This document shows, piece by piece, positions 35,740 through 48,005 of a DNA stretch of 64,000 nucleotides. Source of the DNA: Polytrichum commune. Lineage: Eukaryota; Streptophyta; Polytrichopsida; Polytrichales; Polytrichaceae. The notes under the pieces are model-generated. The model saw only the letters and a list, made by a program, of their open reading frames with translations, did not search any database and was not told the origin of the DNA. The position numbers and the translations under genes were made by a program. The stretch spans positions 28,352,527 to 28,416,526 of the forward strand of contig OX485808.1 in NCBI GenBank assembly GCA_950295325.1, given 5' to 3'. Position 1 is the first letter of the stretch. Each line of letters opens with the position of its first letter.

Positions 35740-38660
35740 TTAGTTATGATTTTGTAGGTCTGTGATGGGTTGTTTATTTTCTATTCGTCTTTTGTGGATT
35801 AATATTGAGTGTGCATATTGTATGGCAATTATGTTAAGTTGTTTGAATGTGTTCCTAATTTGTGATGTGGGGAGTTTAAGCTTTGTTTCAAGTTCGTTCA
35901 TTGAGGGGATGTGAGTTGTGGCTCGGGCACCAGATGCTAATACAATAAGTGGGGCTACGTTCCAACCCTTTGCGATGATATTATTTATGAGTGGTTGATA
36001 TTTTGTGACTTTTTGATTTATGGTTTCAGTGGAGAATCTGTCATTACAGTATGTGAATTCTATAAATTGAACTGTAATTTCTGGTGTGGGTGCTTCTGGT
36101 GGTGGGGAATTGTAAGGGTGTCCTATAATGCATAAAATGTCGGGTTTGAGTCTAGCGTTGCAATGACATCTTTGGGTACCACATGTGCAGGGTAGTAACC
36201 ATGTTGGTACTGTGTTGTCTTGGGGTAGTTCATTATATGTACCTGCGTTCATGAGTATGTAGTGTCTTGTTATTTTATTTGAGACAAGAAGTTTGCGTAT
36301 TTCCCATACCGCTTTGTTATGTCTTTTTGTAATTAGTGCGTGGATGTGTTGTTGTTTGCACTTAAGGAGTATATGTAGCCATGTATCCGCTTCTAATGAG
36401 TTGCAAATGTTACATGTATGGGATGGGTATGCAATTCTACCAAAAAAGAGTTGTTTTCTAGCTTGTCCCATGTATTGTCCAGTTCGGAATTTTACTAAGC
36501 ACGTTTTTTGCTTGTCTGAGATAGCCGGGTTGGTCCAAAAGTCATTTGATAATGTTTTGTCGATATCTTTGTTATCAAGCCATTTATGTAATTGATGTGT
36601 TTGGGTTGCTAGAATGGATAGGTTGTGTTTTTTATCGTGTTTGGTGATGTATTTGCCAAGGTGTCGGATGGGGCCTTTGTCTGGTGTTTCTTGCATTGAA
36701 TGCCACCAATCTTTTTGGAGGTAGTATGGCGTGGGGTGCGCATGCTCATGTGTGGCTATAGCGTCTCTATGTTCTAATTCACAACCCAATTTTGCTAATT
36801 TATCGGCTTGTTCGTTACCTTGAATGTTTGTGTGGGCTTTGACTTTGTGTAGGGTGGTGGTTTGTGTGCGGGATTGCAGCATCTTAACTATGGATTCTAG
36901 TATCTTTTTATCCGGGTGGCTATTGTGTAGTGTTGGGTGTTTAGTTTGCGTGTTCAGGAGGTATAAGACATTGAGACAATCTGTAAAGATATGTGCCGGT
37001 TCATTCCGGTATGTGGTAGTGAGGAGGTGGAGGGTGTGGTGTATAGCCATAAGTTCTGCTCTAAGTATATTTTGGAGTCCGGGTAGTCTTTCTGTGATTT
37101 TGAGGTTTTTGAAAGGGTTATATATACCATACCCTACTTTTTCTCTTCTCCAATGCCCTCGGGTTATTTCTTTGGGTGGCATGAATGATCCATCCGTGTA
37201 ATAGCAAAATTGTGGGTGGTATTTGAGGGGTAGGCATATGTCTTGATTCGTGTATATGGGAGTGTTGGAAGTTTGGTTTGTAATTGGATGGGGGGGTGGG
37301 TATATAAGTTGGGACCATTTCTTGCTTCTATTTACTAAGGTGTTTATAGGTGTAGGCGGTGCCGATGTGTGAAATGATGTGGGTATTTGGAGGTTAGTGC
37401 TAATAGTGTCCATACGATTCGCATATTCACATGATCCGGGGGACGTGTGTTTGTGGTGTATACATAATATGCGGATGTCATGATTTTCTGTTCGTGGGTT
37501 AGTTCGTAATTCCGGGGGTATTGTGGGTTCATCATATGCAATGGTGTCTGCTTTGAAATGTGAGATAACGTGAGAATCTGGGAAAGGGCCTTCATGGGGG
37601 TTGAGATTGTGGTACCAGTTTGGGTCAGTTGTTATGAGTATTGTGATTGTGTCTGGGTTATGTTTGGCGGCAAGTCTAGCCCAATGTAGGGCTTGTTGAG
37701 TGTCTTTTTCTGTGTGCGGGTGGGCATATCCCACCCCTGCCCATTTATGTTGGAATGCTGTGCCTATTGACCCGAATACCTTGTCCCTAGAAAATGGGGA
37801 GGAGAATTGTTTCAATGTAGTAGGACATGTGATTGGTGATGAGAAGTAGGAATGGGTGATGTGGAAGGAGTCAATGATGTTTTCTATGATGGCATTTGGG
37901 AGGGTGTATTGTGAGAGTTTGAGGGGGTCGTTTTTGGGCATTCTATATTTGTATCTTTGATATAACCATGCCACTTCTTTTTCAAAGGATTGTGTGGGGG
38001 GTTCTAAGTTGTGTGGTTTGTTTAATGCATTTTGGTATTGTTCCCATAGCCATTGTAGTCTGAGTTCGGGAATGGTAATTAGGTGGTGTCCGTCATTATC
38101 ATAGATGTGTGATGCGCCATATTGGCTTTGAATGGTGTGTTGTGTGCATTCAATGTCATTATCTGGGTTGCATTCATTGATATGAATGTGGCATAGGGGT
38201 ATGTCTTGTGGTGGACGGACATATCTTGTGTCTCTCATTTGTGCTTCACTAAAGTTTATTTGGAGAATGTTGGTGAAGTGTTGGTGTTGTTTTTGGGTAT
38301 AGTATTGTGTTAAGAGTAGTATGTTGTGATTTATAGTGTTTTGATTGTTCCAAGGGAACAAATCTCTTTGTGGGAGCCATTTATGATATTTGGTTTCGTT
38401 AGGAAGTATCCATTGGCAAAGGTAGGATGTGTAGTATTTTGTGATATTGTGTTTGTCTTTGTATGTGTGAGGGTGGTCGTTTATTATAGATTGTATTGGG
38501 AATTGTATATGGTTTTGTTGGATATGTAAGGGGGGTTTTGGATGTTCCGGTAGTGGGGGTGATATGGGGTGTATGTTTTGTCTATTTAGGCTTGTGTTTA
38601 TACGATGATTTTGTATTTTGTAGGCAAGTATTTGGGCATTGGTTGTGACAAGGGGGTTTA
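35740..38660 (-). pseudogene. LINE ORF2, C-terminal block: RNase H, CCHC knuckle, putative restriction-like nuclease
   Basis: Residue numbers count from 38,361, but the frame stays open upstream to about 38,660, where a frameshift separates it from the RT block. Residues 194-280 (VFGSIGTAFQHKWAGVGY...HVISHFKADT) form a region I recall beside RTs in some algal ORFs. RNase H has D390 (YYTDGS), E436 (LRAELMA), D461 (IFTDCLN), H510 and D520 (NEQADKLAKLG), so its catalytic set is complete. A CCHC knuckle follows at C650, C653, H663 and C668. Then comes CxC..CxC, LKPDILCI (D741), VQFIEFTY (E768) and LIVLASGARATT. These resemble the PD...(D/E)xK core and following strand of R2/Dualen-type nucleases; this last assignment is tentative. 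Confidence 0.8.
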
Positions 38661-41151
38661 CAAAATAGCTTACGCGCGTGTTCTAGGGCGGTTTTAACTA
38701 GTTTAGTGGGTGGGGCATAATAGTACTTGAATTCATCATTTGTCATGAGGTGTGTGCCATTGGGGTGCGTTATGTGTTTTAGTTCGGTTATGTTGTGTAG
38801 AATTAATTTATGTAAGTATTTGAGGGAAGTGGTGGGAGTTAGTGTGGGTATATGGTGTGCTTGACTCATCCATTGTGTCTCTAATGGCGTAGGGTGAAGG
38901 GGGAATTTTGCAAGTGTACTTCTAAGATGAGTGTCACTAGTTTTTTTGAGTAGGTATAATGTTCTAGTAATTGGTGATCTCATGCAATCATGTGGGGTTA
39001 TTCGTGGTAAGTGGAGTGATCCGCCATGTTTAGCAAGGATATGTTTGGTTAATCCATTATATATTTTTCCAAGTCTTCCTTGGTCGTTGAGGGCATTTAT
39101 GAGTTGTTCTCCGATACATGTTATATAGGCATTTTTTAGTGAGAAAGCTTCGGTGCCGAACATATTTTGTGGAAGTTGTGTAACTGCATTTGATAGGCAT
39201 TTTGGGAGGCCACATATATTTTTGTGTAGGGCAATTATTTTTTTATCTAGTTTTTTAATAGCGGGAAGTGAATAAGGGACGGCATAAAAGCTATAGGCTA
39301 TGCCGGCTCTTATGACTGTGTCAACCATTTGTATTTTTTGCTTCATGGTGGCTGGGCATGTGGTTAGGAGTTTACATTGTTTGATTAGTTTGGTTGTTGT
39401 GATATGCGTTTGTGTTTTCCATTGTAGTGATGGAACTAAATTGATTCCGAGGTAAACATATGGTTCGTGTTGGCTTAGTATCGGTATTGGTTGGTTTCGG
39501 AAGTTAATATTAATGGCCGTTAAATGTGTTTTAAAGGCTTGTGCATTTAGTTTGGATTTATTTGGGCATCCTGTGATTGCACATTTCGGGATGCCGAGGT
39601 CCATTCCGGCCCATTCGTAATATCTATCTAGCTTGTTCAATTGTTGTTGTATGGATGTCGTATTGTTGGATATTACCGCTAGGTCGTCCGCATAGGCCGC
39701 GGAGCTTAATTTTGTATTAGAGGTTTTAAAGGTGTATCCGTGGGGTCCACGTTGTAACCATCTAAGTAATGGTTCGAGAAAGATGATGAAGAGGTAAGGG
39801 CTTAGCGTATCTTCTTGTATGGTTCCCCTTTGTATGGGTATGGTTAGTGTTTTATCGAAATATTCCCCGATAAATGTGGTAGTTGATTGTGAATAGATAT
39901 TTCCTACTAGTGCTACGGCATCTTGCGGATAACCGAGGTCTTTCATAATGACGAGGAGTCTAGCATGGTCGATAGAGCCAAAGGCATTTTTGAAGTCTAT
40001 GTATAGGATGTAGATGTCTTGGTTAGTGAGTCGTGCATCTTCTAATGCGGCAATGAGGGTTTGGAGTTGTCGGGCGGTGCATCTTTCCGCTCTAAAGCCC
40101 TCTTGGCTATCATGTAGAATTTGGTGTTTTTCCCCGTATGAGGAGAGAATACTAGTGAGCGTGCTAGTAAATAGTTTGTAGATAGTGTTGGCAAGTGCAA
40201 TAGGCCGATGGTTGGTGAGGTGATGGGGGTTGCCTTTTTTGTATAAGAGTATCGTAAGGCTCGTTTTCCAAGCTTCAAGTATTTGTTTTTGTTTATAACA
40301 GTGGATAAAAAATAATAGTAGAAGCTTGTGAAATCTTGGCGGCATATTTGTTAGTATGGTGTTAGGAATTTGATCGGGTCCCGGCATTTTCCCGTTGGTA
40401 AGGTTTTTAAGACATATATCGTATGTTTCTTGGTCTAGGTATGTGTGTAAGGGAGTTAAGGCTTCGCCTCTATTTTCTATAGTAAATCCGTTGAGGTCAT
40501 GCCACGGATATTGTCTAACTCCACATAGGCATTGTTGTGGGTGATCGGGTTGATAATGGCATGTTGGGACGGTTGGTCTATTGCTTATGGATTGTTGCAC
40601 ATGTATTTCTTGTGCGATGTCTGTGGGGCTTGTAAGGATATTATTGAATCGATCTATTAGGCAGTCTAGAGGGGGGGGGTGTCAATATTCTTGAAGACTT
40701 TTCTATTAATTTTCTTGGGACTTTTGTCATATAATTGTTGGTATTTGCATATGGCTTTTTTGATTTGTTGGGTTGTGTAGTTTGTTGTTATTTTGCGGGC
40801 TTTATTTTTAGCTTCTTTGGCGATGTTGGCTAAGTTGGCTAACCATGTTTCGTATGGGTGGGAAGGATGTGGAGGTGAGGGTATAGTGACAGGGGTATGG
40901 TTGTTAATTTCTTGTGTGATAATGGGGTGAATTCGCCAATTTGGGTTATTTTTTATGATATATATTGTTTTTCTAATAAGATGGTAGGTAGATAGATGTA
41001 TTTTCCATTCTTTTTGGAGTTTCTTTGGAAGGTAGCCTCCTTGCTTAGCAATTTTGTTTGATAGCGTGGGAATGGGTGGGGCACTACATGTTTCTAGGAC
41101 GGTGGTTGTAATGTTATCGGTGAGGGAGCTTAGTGATTGACATGCTAGTTG
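38582..41151 (-). pseudogene. LINE ORF2, linker and reverse transcriptase block
   Basis: After the TGA at 41,152 the original frame stays open to a run of nine C's (G's on the plus strand, 40,671-40,679), where the frame slips. The shifted frame runs to a TAG at 38,582. The RT reads (counting from 40,600) NGKMPGPDQIPN, KKGNPHHLTNHRPIAL, QEGFRAERCTARQ, ILYIDFKNAFGSID (D202), RGTIQEDTLSP and AAYADDLAV (YADD at 303-306). The usual Gly of the xxQGxxLSP motif is Glu (residue 263, about 39,812-39,814), which may weaken activity. A thumb-like region and the NKSKLNAQAF segment follow. Only the C-tract slip and the final frameshift break this part. Confidence 0.85.
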
Positions 41152-41952
41152 TCATTGTTCATTTGTCAAGTGGTTATTTTCTAACAATTGTATGAGCTCG
41201 TCGATTTGGTTTGAGTTGTCCTCGAAGAATTTGGTGTGGAAAATTTCTAGATTTTCCTTGGGTATAGGGTTAAGTATCCTAGGTGGTGGGTCGGGGGTTG
41301 TGATTGGTTCTCTTGCTATAAGTGTGTTTGGGGGTATTCGGAGTTGTACAGGTAGATGATCGGAGTTTAGGTGTGTTGTTTGATTTGTAGTTGAGGTGAA
41401 TTGGTGGTTATGTGGGGTTTTGATGTAAAATCCATCTATTAGGCTATTTTGTGTGTAATTATGCCCTCCTTGCCTTGAGAATGTTGTGTTTGTCGTGATG
41501 TATGTTAATTCTAGGTTGGTTGTAAATGATCGCCAAAGGTAATCTTCCGGTTGTGGCGGTGTGGTTTGTTGGTCGTTTTGTCTTCCAATCAAAGCAATGT
41601 CTCTATTAAAATCTCCACATAGGATGTATGTGTGATTAGGGTGTGTATTGATTTGATGAGTGATGTTAGTTTGTATGATGGGAATGAGGGGTAGGTCCTC
41701 CTCATGCGAGGGCATATATAAATTAATTAAGAGCCATGGTTGTAAAGGTTGGTTTGCTATGTGCGTTACTTGGAGGAATGGGGATATGTTTGCGGGGGTG
41801 GGAATTTTGGAAAGATTGCCTGGAAATGCATGTTTGTTGTGTATTAGTAGTAGTAGTCCTCCTCTATATCCTCTATATGTCATTCGTTGGCGTGTGATTC
41901 TTGTGATGTTGTGTGTGTTGTTGAAGAAAAGTTTGTATTGAGGGAATAGGTG
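41152..41952 (-). pseudogene. LINE ORF2, main part of APE endonuclease
   Basis: This block is in the same frame as the upstream block, from which a single TAA (41,953-41,955) separates it; it ends at a TGA (41,152-41,154). Counting from the Met at 41,883, it has the APE signature strands LLINLYMPSH, ILCGDFNRDI (D91 and N93), SLIDGFYI (D150) and NSDHLPVQLRI (S174, D175, H176). With N715 and E744 of the preceding block, the full catalytic set of an apurinic-type endonuclease is present. This enzyme nicks target DNA to prime reverse transcription. Confidence 0.85.
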
Positions 41953-42735
41953 TTATATATATTTTGTGGATTTAGTGGCGGAAAGCTTGGTTTCTTGAAT
42001 GGTGATGATTGATGGGGGTTGTTGGGGGTCCGTGATTAGTTCTTGTAGACATGGCATGGCAGTGTTTAGTGAGGAGGCATTCCAGGTTATGGCGTATGAT
42101 TCTTGACTAGTTAGCGGGACCGGGTTGGGCGAGGGTGATGGATGATAAGTAATGGGGGGGTTGGGACGTGTGTATTCATTTATAGGTTCGTTATATCTTA
42201 GTGCCTCCATTAGTAGTTGTCGTGGTAGATATGAGAATTTTTCTTGTAATTTTTCTATATTAACGGAGTTATGGTCTAGATGTATATAATCATATAATTG
42301 TTTATGTATTGTGTTGGGAGGGGTGATAGTGTCTTTATATATATGACAAAATTGTGTATATGGGTGTGGGGTATCTATGTGTCTTTCTGGTGGGTTTTGC
42401 AATCTTGACATTTTTTCTAGTAGCTGAGATGTCCATTCTTGTATTGGTTGGTGGTGTAGGAGTGTGTTACATATTAGAGTAGAGGGACTAATGGTTACGA
42501 CTATTGCATAGATGACCCTTGGGGGAGGATGGTGATTATATTGTTGTATGTGATTATACAAGCATGGGAGGGAGTGTATTATTTGTGTATGGAGCGGATG
42601 TGTGTGTTGGAAAAGGGGTTTGAATGTTTCGGCCAAGTGTTGGTATTCTGGGTGGAATTTTATCGTACTTGGTAGGAAATATGTTGTTTGTCTTCTCTTG
42701 TGGTCAAGGGGGTGTGTTTTTAGTAGGTCAGGCAT

Positions 42736-42765
42736 AGGTCCTGGGTTAGGGTGGATGTCGCCGCA
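42736..42765 (-). other. 2A-like motif, second copy (CGDIHPNPGP)
   Basis: Residues 487-496 of the ORF2 block. The canonical ribosome-skipping motif is D(V/I)ExNPGP; here the E position is H. A hydrophobic run (LHLFILQ) precedes it, as in most 2A-like sequences. Activity is uncertain. Confidence 0.7.
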
Positions 42766-42936
42766 TTGTAAAATGAATAAATGTAGTTGAGTATGGTGTT
42801 GTATTATTATGTTTAATTGTGATTTTTGGTTGGATTTTTGGTTGATTGTTACGATTATTGCATAGATTATCCATGAGGGAGGATGTGTACTATGTTGTTG
42901 TATATAGTTGTATAGGTCTTTGGTTATGTGTATATT

Positions 42937-42963
42937 TGGTCCGGGGTTAGGTTTTATGTCACC
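42937..42963 (-). other. 2A-like motif, first copy (GDIKPNPGP)
   Basis: Residues 421-429, preceded by the hydrophobic LQALILLS. The E of the canonical motif is K. NPGP is intact. Confidence 0.7.
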
Positions 42964-44215
42964 GCTAAGGAGTATGAGTGCTTGTAGGTCTATAATGTAT
43001 GTGGTTAGTTTATATAAGGTTGGATGTTTGTGGTGAGGGTGTTTGGTTGTGTAGAATGTGATGTGTATAGAGGTGTGTGGTATGCCTATGTATTTTGGAT
43101 ATTGGAATTGTAGTTGTTGTGGGGTGTTAAGAAGTATGGGTATTGTGGTGTCTATGGAGGTTGTGGTGATTTTGTAGTATAATAATAAGGTCCTTTTATA
43201 TAAAGGTGTGCCATAGATATTATGTGTGCGATTAGATGTGTTGTGTGTGTGTGGGGTGTCCATATAGGGTGTGGGTAGTGTTTGTGGTTTGATTGTGGGA
43301 TGTGTTTTTATGCCCGATCGATGGGGGTTTAGTATTTTTTCATGTGTAAGAGGCAATAGTCTATGATGTGGGTTGGTAGTGTGGGTTCTATCAAAGGGGA
43401 TGGGTATGTGTTGGTGTGTGATGACTTTTTGTATGAGGTTGGTGGGGTGGGTAAGTAGTAGGCGTGTAATATAGAGAGGTGTTAGTGTGTGGTTTAAGGG
43501 GGATTGGGAATTTGGTGTGGGGTTTGTGTTGTTATTTTGTGTGGTGCAAGTGTGTATGGGGTGGATGTAAGTACAAACTAAACAAGTGAGGATCAAAGTG
43601 TCTCTTTCTTTATATATAAAGTAGGGAATATAATATGTAGGGGATATGGGCCATTTGTGGTATGTAGTGGGGTTAATATCCGTTACATGTGTGAGGTTTT
43701 TTATGATGTTTTTGTGGGTGGGATGGGGATAGGATGTTCTCTTTAGATGTATATTTTTAGGTTTGAATATTAATATGTGTTTTTTGGGGCATTGTTTTGG
43801 TGGATGTAATATTAGTGCATTGATGGGGATGTTTGTGGGGGTGTACTTAAGTATATATTTTTGTGTGTTGAATATGGTTTTATTATTTGTGATTGTGTTG
43901 TTGATGTAATGGGGGTGAAATGTGTTGTTGTGTGGGGTTTGTGATTGTGTGGGGTTTGGTGGGTGTTTGAAGGATGTGTGTGTAAAGTCTAGGGGTTTTA
44001 GTGTATATTTTGCTTGTAATTTTGGTGGGGATTTTGTGTGGAGGTTTGTATTGGTGTGTATGGGCCTTGGAGTGATGGTTGACATTGTGTATGTGACTAT
44101 GTATGTGGTAGGCGTGTGGAGTGAGAAAACGAACTCTTTATTAAGTAAATAAAATGTAATACAACAAATAAGCAAGATAAGCAAAGGGGACCATTGGTGA
44201 TGTCTCGGGTGGTCA

Positions 44216-47200
44216 CTATTCATTAAATGAGTTGTGTCCTTGGTGATGTGTTGATGGGTTGTTGTGGAAGCCCGGGGGGGCTTGTAGGGGGAGAGGTGGT
44301 GCGGTAGCGTTGTAGCCGTGCGGTAGTGGTGGTATTGTAGTTCTATGTAGTATTTCCGGTGCGGTGGTAGCGAGCCCGTTGACTAGTCCTTGCATGCGTA
44401 GGTTGGATTGTTGGAGTTCTTGGGCGATTGTTCCAAATAGTGCTTGGAGGTTGTTGGAGTGGTGTGTGATTGTGGCCGTGGTGCCCTCGTGCCTCCGGTC
44501 CGTATGTGTGTTTATGGTGGTGGTGAGCGTCCCAAACTTCTCATCCAACTTGTCCTCCAACTCCTTCATGGTTTTGGTGAGGTACTTCTCGGTGAGGATT
44601 GGGTTGGAGTTGGTGACGTTGCCCATGGCTTGGATTTTCTCCGCGATAGCCTCTCTCGCGGGTGCTTGGGCTAGGCGGATGGCCGTGTTGTTCGGATCCG
44701 TGCCGTCGATGCTTCCGTGGTGTGGGATGAAGTCGATACGTCGTCCTAGGATGAATGTGGATCGGTGTAGCCACTCCGTGTAGACCGCGGCGTTGAGACA
44801 TTGGATGTGGCACCATCCCGCTTGCTTATCGGTGTGTGGGTTGGTGCCAAAGCTTACTCCCACAATGTTATCCGCCCCGAATGCTTGCTTGATGGCCTTG
44901 GTGATGGATGCTTGGGACTCGCGTTGTGGGAGGTTATTAGCGACAAGTGTTGTGCTAATCCGGAGCTCCGACGGGTTGCCGGCACTACGATCCCTTGTGA
45001 TACTCACTTGTAATTTCTCATGTTTGAATGAGAGTCCTTCATTGAGTATTATGTCCCGGGCCTCCTCCGTGGTGAGAGTGAGAAAAGCGAAGGTTTTGTC
45101 GAGCTCCGGCTTGGTGAGGCCCATAAATTCGTGTTGTCTACCGGTGTAGTAACTTTCTCTCACAATTTCCTCAAATACATAAGAGGCATGCTCATGGCGG
45201 AGTGTCTCACCTTTGATGTGTAGACGAAGATTCCGGGCCTTTGTCATGAGCTCGAATCCTTTTTCTACCTTGCCAATGACGCGTTCACCACCTTCCATCT
45301 CCATGACAAATGCCCGGTTACCTTGGAGGAGTGCTATCCCGTCCCTTTGGGGGTGTAGTAGGTGAATTTTGATGAAGCCCGCCCAATTCTTCGTGACGGC
45401 ATTGATTCCTATGTCTATGGGATTGGAGTATGTCAAGCCGAGGGGGATCTCCATTTGTCGAAGTCGTTCCATGCAACCTCTCCTTGCCTCTTGTCTACTT
45501 GTATTCTTGAAACCGAAATCGTATCGGACGGTGATGTGAAAGCCTTCGGATAGGCCGGTGGTTGGGTCGATCTTCTCTAGTCTTGGGAGTTGTGTGAAGT
45601 GGAGGTGGTTCCCGGGGACCGCATCCGGTCTCTCTTGTGGGTAGTAAACTTGCGGTACATGCGGGAACGCTCTTCGGAGAGTCTTGAACTCGACAATCTC
45701 TTTGGTGGGGATCCCTAGTCTTGTGAATTCTTCGGTTGGCCGGTGTTCGTGGATGATCTCTTGGCCCCGTTGAATGGCTATGGCTTCATGGATGGGGAAT
45801 CCTAACCACATGTGGGAGACGATGTCAATGCTTGGGACGACTTCTTTGGTCTTCTCATGTTGGAGTTTGCTCGTTCCGAGTGGAGTTGTGTGTCGTCCCT
45901 CTTCATTCCTCCTACGTTTGGCGCTTTGTGTGTTGGATGTAGCTTCCTTCCTTGGGCTCTTGTGTGAGGTCGTGGGGGTCTCATCGGCAAGATTGATGAT
46001 GTCTAGTCGATTTGTGGAGATGGCGGCTTGGTTGGGGATGGCGGCGTACTCATTGTGGGATGATGATAGTTGAAGTGAGCTTCCGTCGTGTTCGGGCGAA
46101 ACGTCTACGAGTTGCATATCTATGTCGGAATCATGAGAAGGGGGGGCCTTCTCCTTTATGACCGTGGGTTGGCTAGGTGTTGGGGCAGTTGTCTCCCGGT
46201 CCTCTTCGTCACTGTAGTCGGAGATGAGGGCCCGTCTTCGGCCTAAACTGCGGCTCCTGGTCCCGGCTCCCGCTAGTGAAACCGCCGCTTCCTCGTCTCC
46301 TCCACGCCCTGCATGTTTCTGTACCGCTCTGTTGTGGCTCTTGGCCGGGAAGCCTGCTCCGGTGCTGGTGGTGTTGCCTTTCACTTTGGTCCTGCTATCT
46401 TGGTGCTGGCTCGGATTGCTGCGAGTATGCTGGGCGGCTGTGTGGGGATCGCTGTTAGGAGCCATTGTAGTGTGGATTGAGTGTGAGGAGAGGATGAGAG
46501 GATGAGTGAGGAAGGGTGAGCGGAGCGGAGGTATTTGTAGGAGTTGGTGTGAGTGTGATTGTTCCTGGTGATCTGCATTGGGGCTTTGTTGGGGGGTGTC
46601 AGGTTGGGAGATCGGGATCAGCGGGTGGCGATTTGCCTTTGCGGGGAATGTGGTTAGTTTGTGTGAGAGGTTGTGTCTATTAGGGGAAGAGTCTTGTGAG
46701 GTTCCGGAGTGGTTGGCTGTGTGTGCGTCTGTGTTTGGGTTGGAATTGCGAGTATCTGTGTGGCTGCCTTTGGTGTGCGCTGGTACTGATTGTGGGATTG
46801 CGGGAAGGGTAGGCATGTGGGAGTCTGTTTTCGGGAGAGGGGTGTGCTGGATCTGACGGGGTGGGGTGCAGCGGTGTGTGAAGTATGGATGTGTGTTGGA
46901 CTTTGTGGGATGGCGGACTGCTATCTGAGTGTGGGTGAGCTGGGGTGTGCGGCTAGCTGTGTGGCGTTTATTGTAGTTTGGGTGTGTAGGGGTGGGTGAG
47001 AGGTGTGTGAGTGTCAGGGGGTTGTGGTTAGGGTGAATGCTGGTGCATGCGGCTAGGAATGTAGGTAGCACTCGTTCTGTTTTAAGTGAGTGAGCTTGCG
47101 GGATGTGGCGTTTTGTGGAGTTTGGGTGTGAGATATGGTGCAGGGTCTGACATTTGGCCATTTGAGGAGGCGGGGGGCGGCGGCAGCGACTTTTTTGCGG

Positions 47201-47890
47201 TAAGTTTGTACAGTGTGTGTTGTGTGTTTTTCTGGTGATATTGTCTGTGCATGCTTGCTGGTAAGTGCCAATCTTTTTGCTAACCTTTGTGTTTTCGACT
47301 TTGTGCTTTGTGGGTGGCTGCGAGTGAGGCGATCGGGGCGTGGTGGCTGGAGCTGGGTGCAAGTGTGGAGGAGGCGCACTCTGGTGTGATATTTTATGAA
47401 GGAGGGTAGTGTAGGCTGAGTGAGGTTTTGGGAGGTAGAGATAGAGGAAGCTTTGTTGCTGATGTATGGTGGGGTATTGCTGGAGCAAGTGAGATCTTAG
47501 TGTAGTGACTATGTTGGTGGGATTTTCTGGGGAGGAAGTGTGGTGTGTGTTGACACACAGTGTAATGGTGCTGATGAGCACCCATGCAATTAGTAAATCC
47601 TTGGCCGTTTGTAGCCATGTCGATTCTGGTCCCTCTCTTCGCCGCTTGTCTCTCAGATCTGGATCTGTGTTGTTGTTGCTGCGCCCTTGTTTGTTCGGTG
47701 TTGCAGATCTGGTTGTCCCGAAGTCTCGCAGTAGCGAGCTCTTGAGGTTGTGGGTTGTTTTCGGCGTTGAAGAAGTAGATCTGAGGGGAGGGTGCCGCTG
47801 TGCGCCGCGTTGTGTCTGTAGCTGTGCTTCACTTCGCTGTGTCTGTGTCTGTGCTTCGCCGGCTGCGGGCACAGCAGCGGGAGGGCTCAT
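44216..47890 (-). CDS. LINE ORF1, RNA-binding-type protein
   Basis: The start is the first ATG at 47,890 (about 1,224 aa). The frame is open with no stop to 47,977, and another ATG at 46,465 would give 749 aa. Residue numbers here count from 47,977. The first 500 residues are rich in T, H, P, S and Q, with one hydrophobic stretch near 125-143 (DLLIAWVLISTITLCV). A basic segment near 560-610 (VQKHAGRGGDEEAA, RSRSLGRRRALI) precedes the folded part. Residues 1005-1084 look like an RRM (TTLVANNLPQ ... AGWCHIQCLNAAVYTEWL). Residues 1124-1190 are likely a coiled coil, and the end is Pro-rich. ORF1 proteins of this kind bind element RNA. The last codons overlap the ORF2 ATG. Confidence 0.75.
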   Translation of the reverse strand: MSPPAAVPAAGEAQTQTQRSEAQLQTQRGAQRHPPLRSTSSTPKTTHNLKSSLLRDFGTTRSATPNKQGRSNNNTDPDLRDKRRREGPESTWLQTAKDLLIAWVLISTITLCVNTHHTSSPENPTNIVTTLRSHLLQQYPTIHQQQSFLYLYLPKPHSAYTTLLHKISHQSAPPPHLHPAPATTPRSPHSQPPTKHKVENTKVSKKIGTYQQACTDNITRKTHNTHCTNLPQKSRCRRPPPPQMAKCQTLHHISHPNSTKRHIPQAHSLKTERVLPTFLAACTSIHPNHNPLTLTHLSPTPTHPNYNKRHTASRTPQLTHTQIAVRHPTKSNTHPYFTHRCTPPRQIQHTPLPKTDSHMPTLPAIPQSVPAHTKGSHTDTRNSNPNTDAHTANHSGTSQDSSPNRHNLSHKLTTFPAKANRHPLIPISQPDTPQQSPNADHQEQSHSHQLLQIPPLRSPFLTHPLILSSHSIHTTMAPNSDPHTAAQHTRSNPSQHQDSRTKVKGNTTSTGAGFPAKSHNRAVQKHAGRGGDEEAAVSLAGAGTRSRSLGRRRALISDYSDEEDRETTAPTPSQPTVIKEKAPPSHDSDIDMQLVDVSPEHDGSSLQLSSSHNEYAAIPNQAAISTNRLDIINLADETPTTSHKSPRKEATSNTQSAKRRRNEEGRHTTPLGTSKLQHEKTKEVVPSIDIVSHMWLGFPIHEAIAIQRGQEIIHEHRPTEEFTRLGIPTKEIVEFKTLRRAFPHVPQVYYPQERPDAVPGNHLHFTQLPRLEKIDPTTGLSEGFHITVRYDFGFKNTSRQEARRGCMERLRQMEIPLGLTYSNPIDIGINAVTKNWAGFIKIHLLHPQRDGIALLQGNRAFVMEMEGGERVIGKVEKGFELMTKARNLRLHIKGETLRHEHASYVFEEIVRESYYTGRQHEFMGLTKPELDKTFAFLTLTTEEARDIILNEGLSFKHEKLQVSITRDRSAGNPSELRISTTLVANNLPQRESQASITKAIKQAFGADNIVGVSFGTNPHTDKQAGWCHIQCLNAAVYTEWLHRSTFILGRRIDFIPHHGSIDGTDPNNTAIRLAQAPAREAIAEKIQAMGNVTNSNPILTEKYLTKTMKELEDKLDEKFGTLTTTINTHTDRRHEGTTATITHHSNNLQALFGTIAQELQQSNLRMQGLVNGLATTAPEILHRTTIPPLPHGYNATAPPLPLQAPPGFHNNPSTHHQGHNSFNE

Positions 47891-48005
47891 CTCGTCGGTT
47901 CGGTTCGGTGTGGATTTCGAGAGCGGTTGTCCAACCTGTTGTAGTAACCTTGGTATGACTGCATCACTATGTCTCACGTACTACACCAACGTACGTAAGA
48001 CGTCC

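Follow-up and report, generated by a model that had tools for sequence, protein, structure and literature searches.

Predicted StopGo/2A sites kept by selection in ORF2 of a Dualen/RandI-like LINE from a land plant

Our analysis reveals a set of 2A-like sites, maintained by selection, within the N-terminal region of ORF2 in a land-plant LINE resembling the Dualen/RandI group, and we consider it probable that they work as StopGo/2A (ribosome-skipping) signals, the skipping being predicted from their sequence. Most 2A known so far come from viruses and from elements of animals and trypanosomes.

In the mechanism we propose, translation of ORF2 would start, in some copies at least, from an ATG overlapping the ORF1 stop. 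With the leucine-rich stretch and GDI(E/H)xNPG lying in the exit tunnel, no Gly-Pro bond would form; the peptide made up to that point would be released, and translation would resume from Pro. The enzyme part (endonuclease, reverse transcriptase, RNase H and second endonuclease) would begin with P-M-P, separate from the N-terminal peptides, and duplication of a module consisting of the 2A plus the stretch following it would have produced multi-site copies and extra small peptides.

The 2A-like sites of the window and the element that carries them

The window, i.e., the whole stretch of 64,000 nucleotides analysed, carries GDIKPNPGP (site 1) and GDIHPNPGP (site 2) on its minus strand in one ORF2 frame of a LINE (Table 1), in agreement with the original prediction. 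The open frame holding both extends over 41953-44382 (minus strand, 809 codons). Counted start to start, the sites are 67 residues apart (66 had been claimed), and each follows a hydrophobic run, LQALILLS and LHLFILQC, respectively, as had been noted. Their placement just upstream of the endonuclease was correct as to order but loose as to distance, with ~215 residues between site 2 and the endonuclease start.

Table 1. Features of the LINE copy in the window, with positions counted from the first letter of the window.
Feature	Position	Strand	Basis
ORF1 frame, 1254 codons stop to stop	44216..47980	-	open frame
8-nt overlap ATGAATAG, ORF2 ATG (first base 44223) over ORF1 stop	44216..44223	-	4/7 copies
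ORF2, broken	35740..44223	-	frames
16 codons preceding site 1, KLTTYIIDLQALILLS	42964..43011	-	same type (DLQ/DLH) in L008, L010, L016, L018, L019, L067, L072
2A-like site 1, GDIKPNPGP, p14 = K	42937..42963	-	same stretch in L001; upstream class under purifying selection
Segment following site 1, IHITKDLYNYIQQHSTHPPSWIIYAIIVTIN	42841..42933	-	aligns with the segment after site 2, score 96, 0/1000 shuffles as high
16 codons preceding site 2, ending QLHLFILQC	42763..42810	-	sequence, comparison with copies
2A-like site 2 (last 2A), GDIHPNPGP, p14 = H, then MP	42736..42762	-	H14 throughout L001-L019
Segment following site 2, IHSLPCLYNHIQQYNHHPPPRVIYAIVVTIS	42487..42579	-	partner of the segment after site 1
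AP-type endonuclease (Exo_endo_phos_2)	41347..41733	-	Pfam E 1.9e-8
Reverse transcriptase	39440..40237	-	Pfam RVT_1 E 4.1e-25
PCIF1_WW-like segment	37675..38022	-	Pfam E 2.2e-9
RNase H	36781..37209	-	Pfam E 1.4e-14
CCHC finger and putative restriction-like endonuclease signature (RH, PD, E, KX2KY)	35770..36507	-	invariant columns, 10 copies

The proposal that the motifs lie in a plant LINE was borne out as regards the land-plant host by a TNL gene (with frames for TIR, NB-ARC and LRR) together with a VHS gene frame in the same window. A contig of 146,561 bases (C8) holds a chlL gene above the family cut-off, adjoining a second long frame that we take to be chlN, the pair being presumably of plastid type; to our knowledge, flowering plants are without plastid chlL and chlN, and the host is therefore probably non-flowering, perhaps a bryophyte such as a moss.

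The minus-strand frames of the element span 47980 to 35740. The ORF2 of the window copy is damaged by two in-frame stops, which leave frames ending at 41953 and at 41152, and by changes of frame at about 40.67 and 38.6 kb. Long frames exist in its relatives (related loci or copies in the genome are denoted L###, and contigs C1 and C8): the ORF2 of L041 is a single frame of 2625 codons, and the open frames listed for related loci include 2625 codons at three places as well as 2663 and 2924 codons. No Pfam match was obtained for the ORF1 frame at E 0.01. The 8-nt overlap of the ORF2 ATG with the ORF1 stop (ATGNNTAG) is present in the window, L042, L044 and L045 and absent from L041, L043 and L046; it suggests coupled termination and restart, like that of SART1 as reviewed in PMC5972666.

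Several further observations concern the element as a whole. Upstream of ORF1, within the 80 letters read, a stretch containing GTGCCGATGCTGCTCACACC occurs two times in L136 and one time in L135. GC skew ranges from 0.375 to 0.680 over 36001-44000 in 2-kb steps, a strong strand asymmetry, and the coding strand is therefore C-rich. The PCIF1_WW-like segment lies between the reverse transcriptase and RNase H (residues 1871-1966 of the L041 ORF2, Pfam 3e-10); the NPPF letters are not kept in the PCIF1 alignment, as judged by eye, and the search against PDB reached PCIF1 at no better than E 0.1 and 0.24. Three near-identical copies with a 2625-codon ORF2 (L024, L031 and L032, flanks L137-L139) differ in sequence past their CTAT-repeat 3' end, a sign of recent movement.

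The domain content bears on the LINE group. By PDB search score, the reverse transcriptase has its best match in R2 (5.3e-26), with LINE-1 ORF2 at 2.2e-13; a reverse transcriptase that branches between the RLE and APE groups is one criterion for Dualen/RandI. The AP-type endonuclease that precedes it was recognized by Pfam in the window, and L041 and L042 contain GDFNRDI and SDH; the L041 endonuclease region gave no Pfam match at E 1, no PDB match, and NCBIfam xth at 0.0048, under its cut-off. RNase H was found in L041 as well (4.6e-13). The C-terminal domain is invariant in 10 copies at C32, C35, H45, C50, R62-H63, P122-D123, E150, K166 and K169-Y170, and LINEs with a restriction-like endonuclease are characterized by CCHC, RH, a PD-(D/E) core and KX2KY (PMC5678591). 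The CCHC spacing is CX2CX9HX4C here vs. CX2-3CX7-8HX4C in that source, the C-H interval being one residue longer. Relatives of this domain were not confirmed in viral contigs. Because searches against PDB with phmmer or a profile gave no match and the single-sequence structure model was poor (pLDDT 36), the second endonuclease is a putative one, assigned by motifs.

The combination of an AP-type and a restriction-like endonuclease marks Dualen/RandI (PMC3636483, PMC4640811), for which RNase H has also been reported (PMC4640811). In 2015 this group was listed for green algae only (PMC4438587, in the part available), and a 2022 review names L1 and RTE as the LINEs of land plants (PMC9033089). 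A poly(A) 3' end, the criterion for plant L1, was not found: three L041-type copies end in a CTAT repeat with different flanks. Searching for the CTAT-repeat border did not locate the 3' end of the window copy. An ordinary plant L1 is not favoured, given the nearer match to R2 than to L1, the CTAT-repeat ends of related copies and the second endonuclease signature; the element looks like a dual-endonuclease LINE of the Dualen/RandI type.

Genome-wide occurrence and selection

In the genome searched (407.8 Mb in 64 contigs, seven of which are large at 42 to 78 Mb), GD(V/I)xxNPGP occurs 425 times (230 + 195), and neither the pattern read backwards (0 + 0) nor the reversed-order peptide (0) occurs at all. 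These controls bear on the idea that NPGP arises by accident wherever P, N, H and T abound in a protein. The frame in the window does contain much T (13.7%), P (11.6%) and H (9.1%), but from this composition 1.8e-7 occurrences of GD(I/V)xxNPGP are expected and two are observed; 425 motifs against none in both reversed controls, together with the selection described below, argue further against it. The sites are therefore not due to chance, and we reject this explanation, whose probability is negligible. The original prediction had noted that E is replaced by K or H. This applies to the two window sites but not generally, since E stands at position 14 (p14) in 256 (135 + 121) of the 425 motifs, and the loss of E is thus special to some subfamilies.

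The motifs belong to a recognizable family. Among loci retrieved through the place of a motif, 33 were read (L048-L080, all but one on C1), and each of their 37 motifs has, by eye, the family stretch before it or the family protein after it; the following stretch is difficult to recognise after the first site of L054 and that of L071. With a motif-free query beginning right after the 2A (150/587 candidates scored), 27 of the 34 C1 matches listed carry an exact copy of the motif at the codon where it should lie, and in two more it is one base off. The remaining five comprise GNIEPNPGP (L081), RDIESNPGP (L083), GDIELNRGP (L084), GDIEPNPRP (L085) and one locus with no motif (L082); L081 and L083 fit the widened core of PMC12846837, and L084 and L085 have one core change each. 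With a motif-containing query, 26 of the 34 C1 matches listed carry the motif, and the other eight (L085-L092) include two GDIEPHPGP and six with other core changes.

Selection was assessed on FastTree trees with ancestral states by parsimony, and the results are counts, not likelihood tests. For the last 2A, 81 rows (80 loci and the window) were reduced to 65 after eight were dropped (gap, stop or shift) and eight identical ones merged. On internal branches, the eight core codons other than p15 show 43 silent and six amino-acid changes (dN/dS 0.043), against a neutral expectation of 139 amino-acid changes. At p15, three silent and five amino-acid changes give a dN/dS of 0.83, i.e., no constraint. 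The flanks lie in between, with 0.42 for the 16 codons before and 0.158 for the 41 codons after, and the core differs from both (Fisher p 1.8e-10 and 7.6e-4, respectively). The core is laxer on terminal branches (28 silent, 19 amino-acid changes; 0.209), where it differs from the codons before (p 0.002) and not from those after (p 0.33). The sites are kept by selection except at p15, as expected of StopGo/2A. Conservation across related copies had been set beforehand as a check, and because the motif is conserved among them, with purifying selection on its core, the prediction passed its first refutation test.

Other samples gave similar counts. In the motif-free set (51 loci, four dropped and identical ones merged, leaving 40 rows), the core shows 17 silent and three amino-acid changes (0.055); it is tighter than the codons before (p 0.0085), and its tightness relative to the 41 codons after falls short of significance (p 0.28). 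The 19 rows of the window subfamily have 13 silent and no amino-acid changes in the core on internal branches, and 11 and one on terminal branches. For upstream sites, 21 rows fetched by homology yielded 11 silent changes and one amino-acid change on internal branches, and eight and three on terminal ones. A larger upstream set of 36 rows (19 silent, one amino-acid) leans to conservation because it was partly motif-fetched and its rows needed 5/7 motif letters; the same 5/7-letter rule applied to the 21 rows.

An alternative that we regard as unlikely is that the sites form a conserved structural motif of the N-terminal domain of ORF2, with no skipping, and resemble 2A by convergence. The position of the sites within a duplicated region, the constraint on the 41 codons after them and the persistence of K14 in a lineage with long open frames would all agree with it. 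However, the constraint is distributed as in 2A, with p15 free and almost no variation at p12, p13 and p17-p19 (the same residue in 60 to 65 of the 65 rows); residues known to be active mostly occupy p14 and p16 (PMC12846837), and the preceding leucine-rich run fits 2A.

Still less credence is given to the sites as relics of an ancestral activity, with the Met right after the last NPGP acting as an internal start that makes the enzyme. Met does stand behind the last 2A in 64/65 rows and behind 0/36 upstream sites, as an internal start would have it; however, amino-acid selection acts on internal branches on the codons before the Met, and upstream sites with no Met behind them are also selected (11 silent, one amino-acid). 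The selection on the core, including these Met-less sites, calls for a motif that is translated and used.

Tandem sites and residue variants

The number of NPGP sites per frame varies: one in L041 and L042, two in L046 and L047, three in L043 and L045, and four in L044. A tandem pair, as originally described, is thus present in the window but is not the rule, with seven copies holding 1, 1, 2, 2, 3, 3 and 4 sites. Atypical members occur, namely GAIHTNPGP in L045 and RDIELNPGP in L044.

In the window, both sites are followed by a shared segment of 31 residues (Table 1), and the post-site stretches of L069 and L041 align with a score of 101 (best of 2000 shuffles, 48). Comparison of 34 upstream sites (those with at least 35 open residues behind) with the L041 stretch gave 15 that beat all 300 shuffles and 19 that do not, and the idea that the same module follows every upstream 2A was not borne out by these 19. 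Part of the 19 resemble one another (WNN and DLQ types), and in them the stretch may have diverged or gone missing. For part of the sites, these sequence comparisons show a likeness of modules that speaks for duplication. As to arrangement, GDIQTNPGP follows GDIHPNPGP in L043, the latter being elsewhere the last site, and module order therefore varies.

Among the 65 rows of the last 2A, p14 is E in 42, H in 19 and K in four; p15 is P in 48, S in seven, L in seven, T in two and A in one; and p16 is N in 57, H in seven and K in one. These tallies count copies, and the amino-acid changes on the tree number four at p14 and three at p16; because the events are few, the match of these variants to the viral ones is suggestive only. 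H14 is shared by L001-L019 and the window, and H at p16 (EPHPGP or EPHPAP) was seen in L089, L090, L093, L095, L097, L099, L100, L104 and L110. Of 41 distinct motifs with no MP after them, five are of the last type by their following letters (L004, L053, L076, L098 and L113); the other 36 are upstream sites, with Q (20), E (7), H (7), K (1) and Y (1) at p14. K14 is carried by site 1 of the window, L026-L030, L033, L035 and L065, and is the residue of the single 2A in one lineage (L026-L030 and L033) with open frames of up to 2924 codons.

Neither window site falls within the core (D/G/C/N)(V/I)ExNPGP, K14 and H14 standing outside it. One of the upstream motif types of 2A is rich in L and has (A/S/C)G just before D12 (PMC12846837); judged by eye against that source, both window sites have such a stretch (LILLS-G and FILQC-G), and some relatives have G-G, H-G or I-G before D12 instead. 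Li et al. flagged H14 and H16 variants in RNA viruses, with >95% activity in natural flanks, and K14 is not among the variants flagged in the available part of that work (PMC12846837). The doubt originally cast on the activity of both variants is therefore eased for H14 and upheld for K14, and site 2 of the window is, by its sequence, likely competent. E14Q retained 56% or 26% activity in earlier work cited in the same source, which also reports that D12A abolished the activity of F2A (PMC12846837).

We lean slightly towards regarding ORF2 as a true poly-2A frame, in which up to four skipping sites, perhaps differing in strength (E, H, Q or K at p14), would yield graded small peptides and a free replication enzyme. 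Counting against working sites are Q14 in 20/36 upstream sites, the upstream GAI in L005-L007 and the K14 lineage; if K14 does not skip, the intact-frame lineage L026-L030 and L033 would do without skipping.

Significance and comparison with known systems

StopGo works in plants as a tool, and plant ribosomes can respond to such a signal, as shown by the skipping of a sea-urchin 2A in tobacco leaf (PMC4981915). If our reading of the sites as working StopGo/2A in a Dualen/RandI-like element is true, plant ribosomes have met a 2A signal in evolution, and hundreds of natural 2A sites exist within one land-plant genome; with the E, H, Q and K forms that occur naturally, one could test which signals plant ribosomes accept, and dual-endonuclease LINEs would be extended from green algae to land plants. 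No report of 2A in plant retrotransposons was among the literature matches listed (title and abstract opening), and an earlier mention is possible; the available parts of PMC12371167 and PMC5972666 name no 2A in plants.

With the StopGo/2A of RNA viruses, the sites share the D(V/I)(E or H)x(N or H)PGP core, the free p15 and the L-rich stretch ending in (A/S/C)G (PMC12846837). For plant viruses, the 2026 virus-genome survey, in its available part, gives no evidence of natural StopGo use (PMC12846837). In contrast to the RNA-virus sites, those described here belong to a land-plant retrotransposon, and K14 and Q14 are common in some of its subfamilies.

Among non-LTR elements, a 2A was reportedly described in the trypanosome L1Tc by Heras in 2006, and in elements of sea urchin and other animals by Odon in 2013. 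The 2A of trypanosome and animal LINEs sits in the reading frame before the AP-type endonuclease, as it does in the present element, which differs from them in its apparent dual-endonuclease group, its plant host and its up to four sites per frame.

Like Dualen/RandI, the element combines an AP-type endonuclease, a reverse transcriptase, RNase H and, by motif, a restriction-like endonuclease; unlike it, it comes from a land plant and carries 2A-like sites, whereas Dualen/RandI is known from green algae (PMC4438587) and the available parts of PMC4640811, PMC3636483 and PMC4438587 mention no 2A. The multi-2A picornaviruses are similar in having several sites, ~50 to 150 residues apart, in numbers that vary between close relatives (PMC11512398). 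Their inter-site tracts match only those of related viruses (PMC11512398), whereas here the tracts appear to be partly copies of one module.
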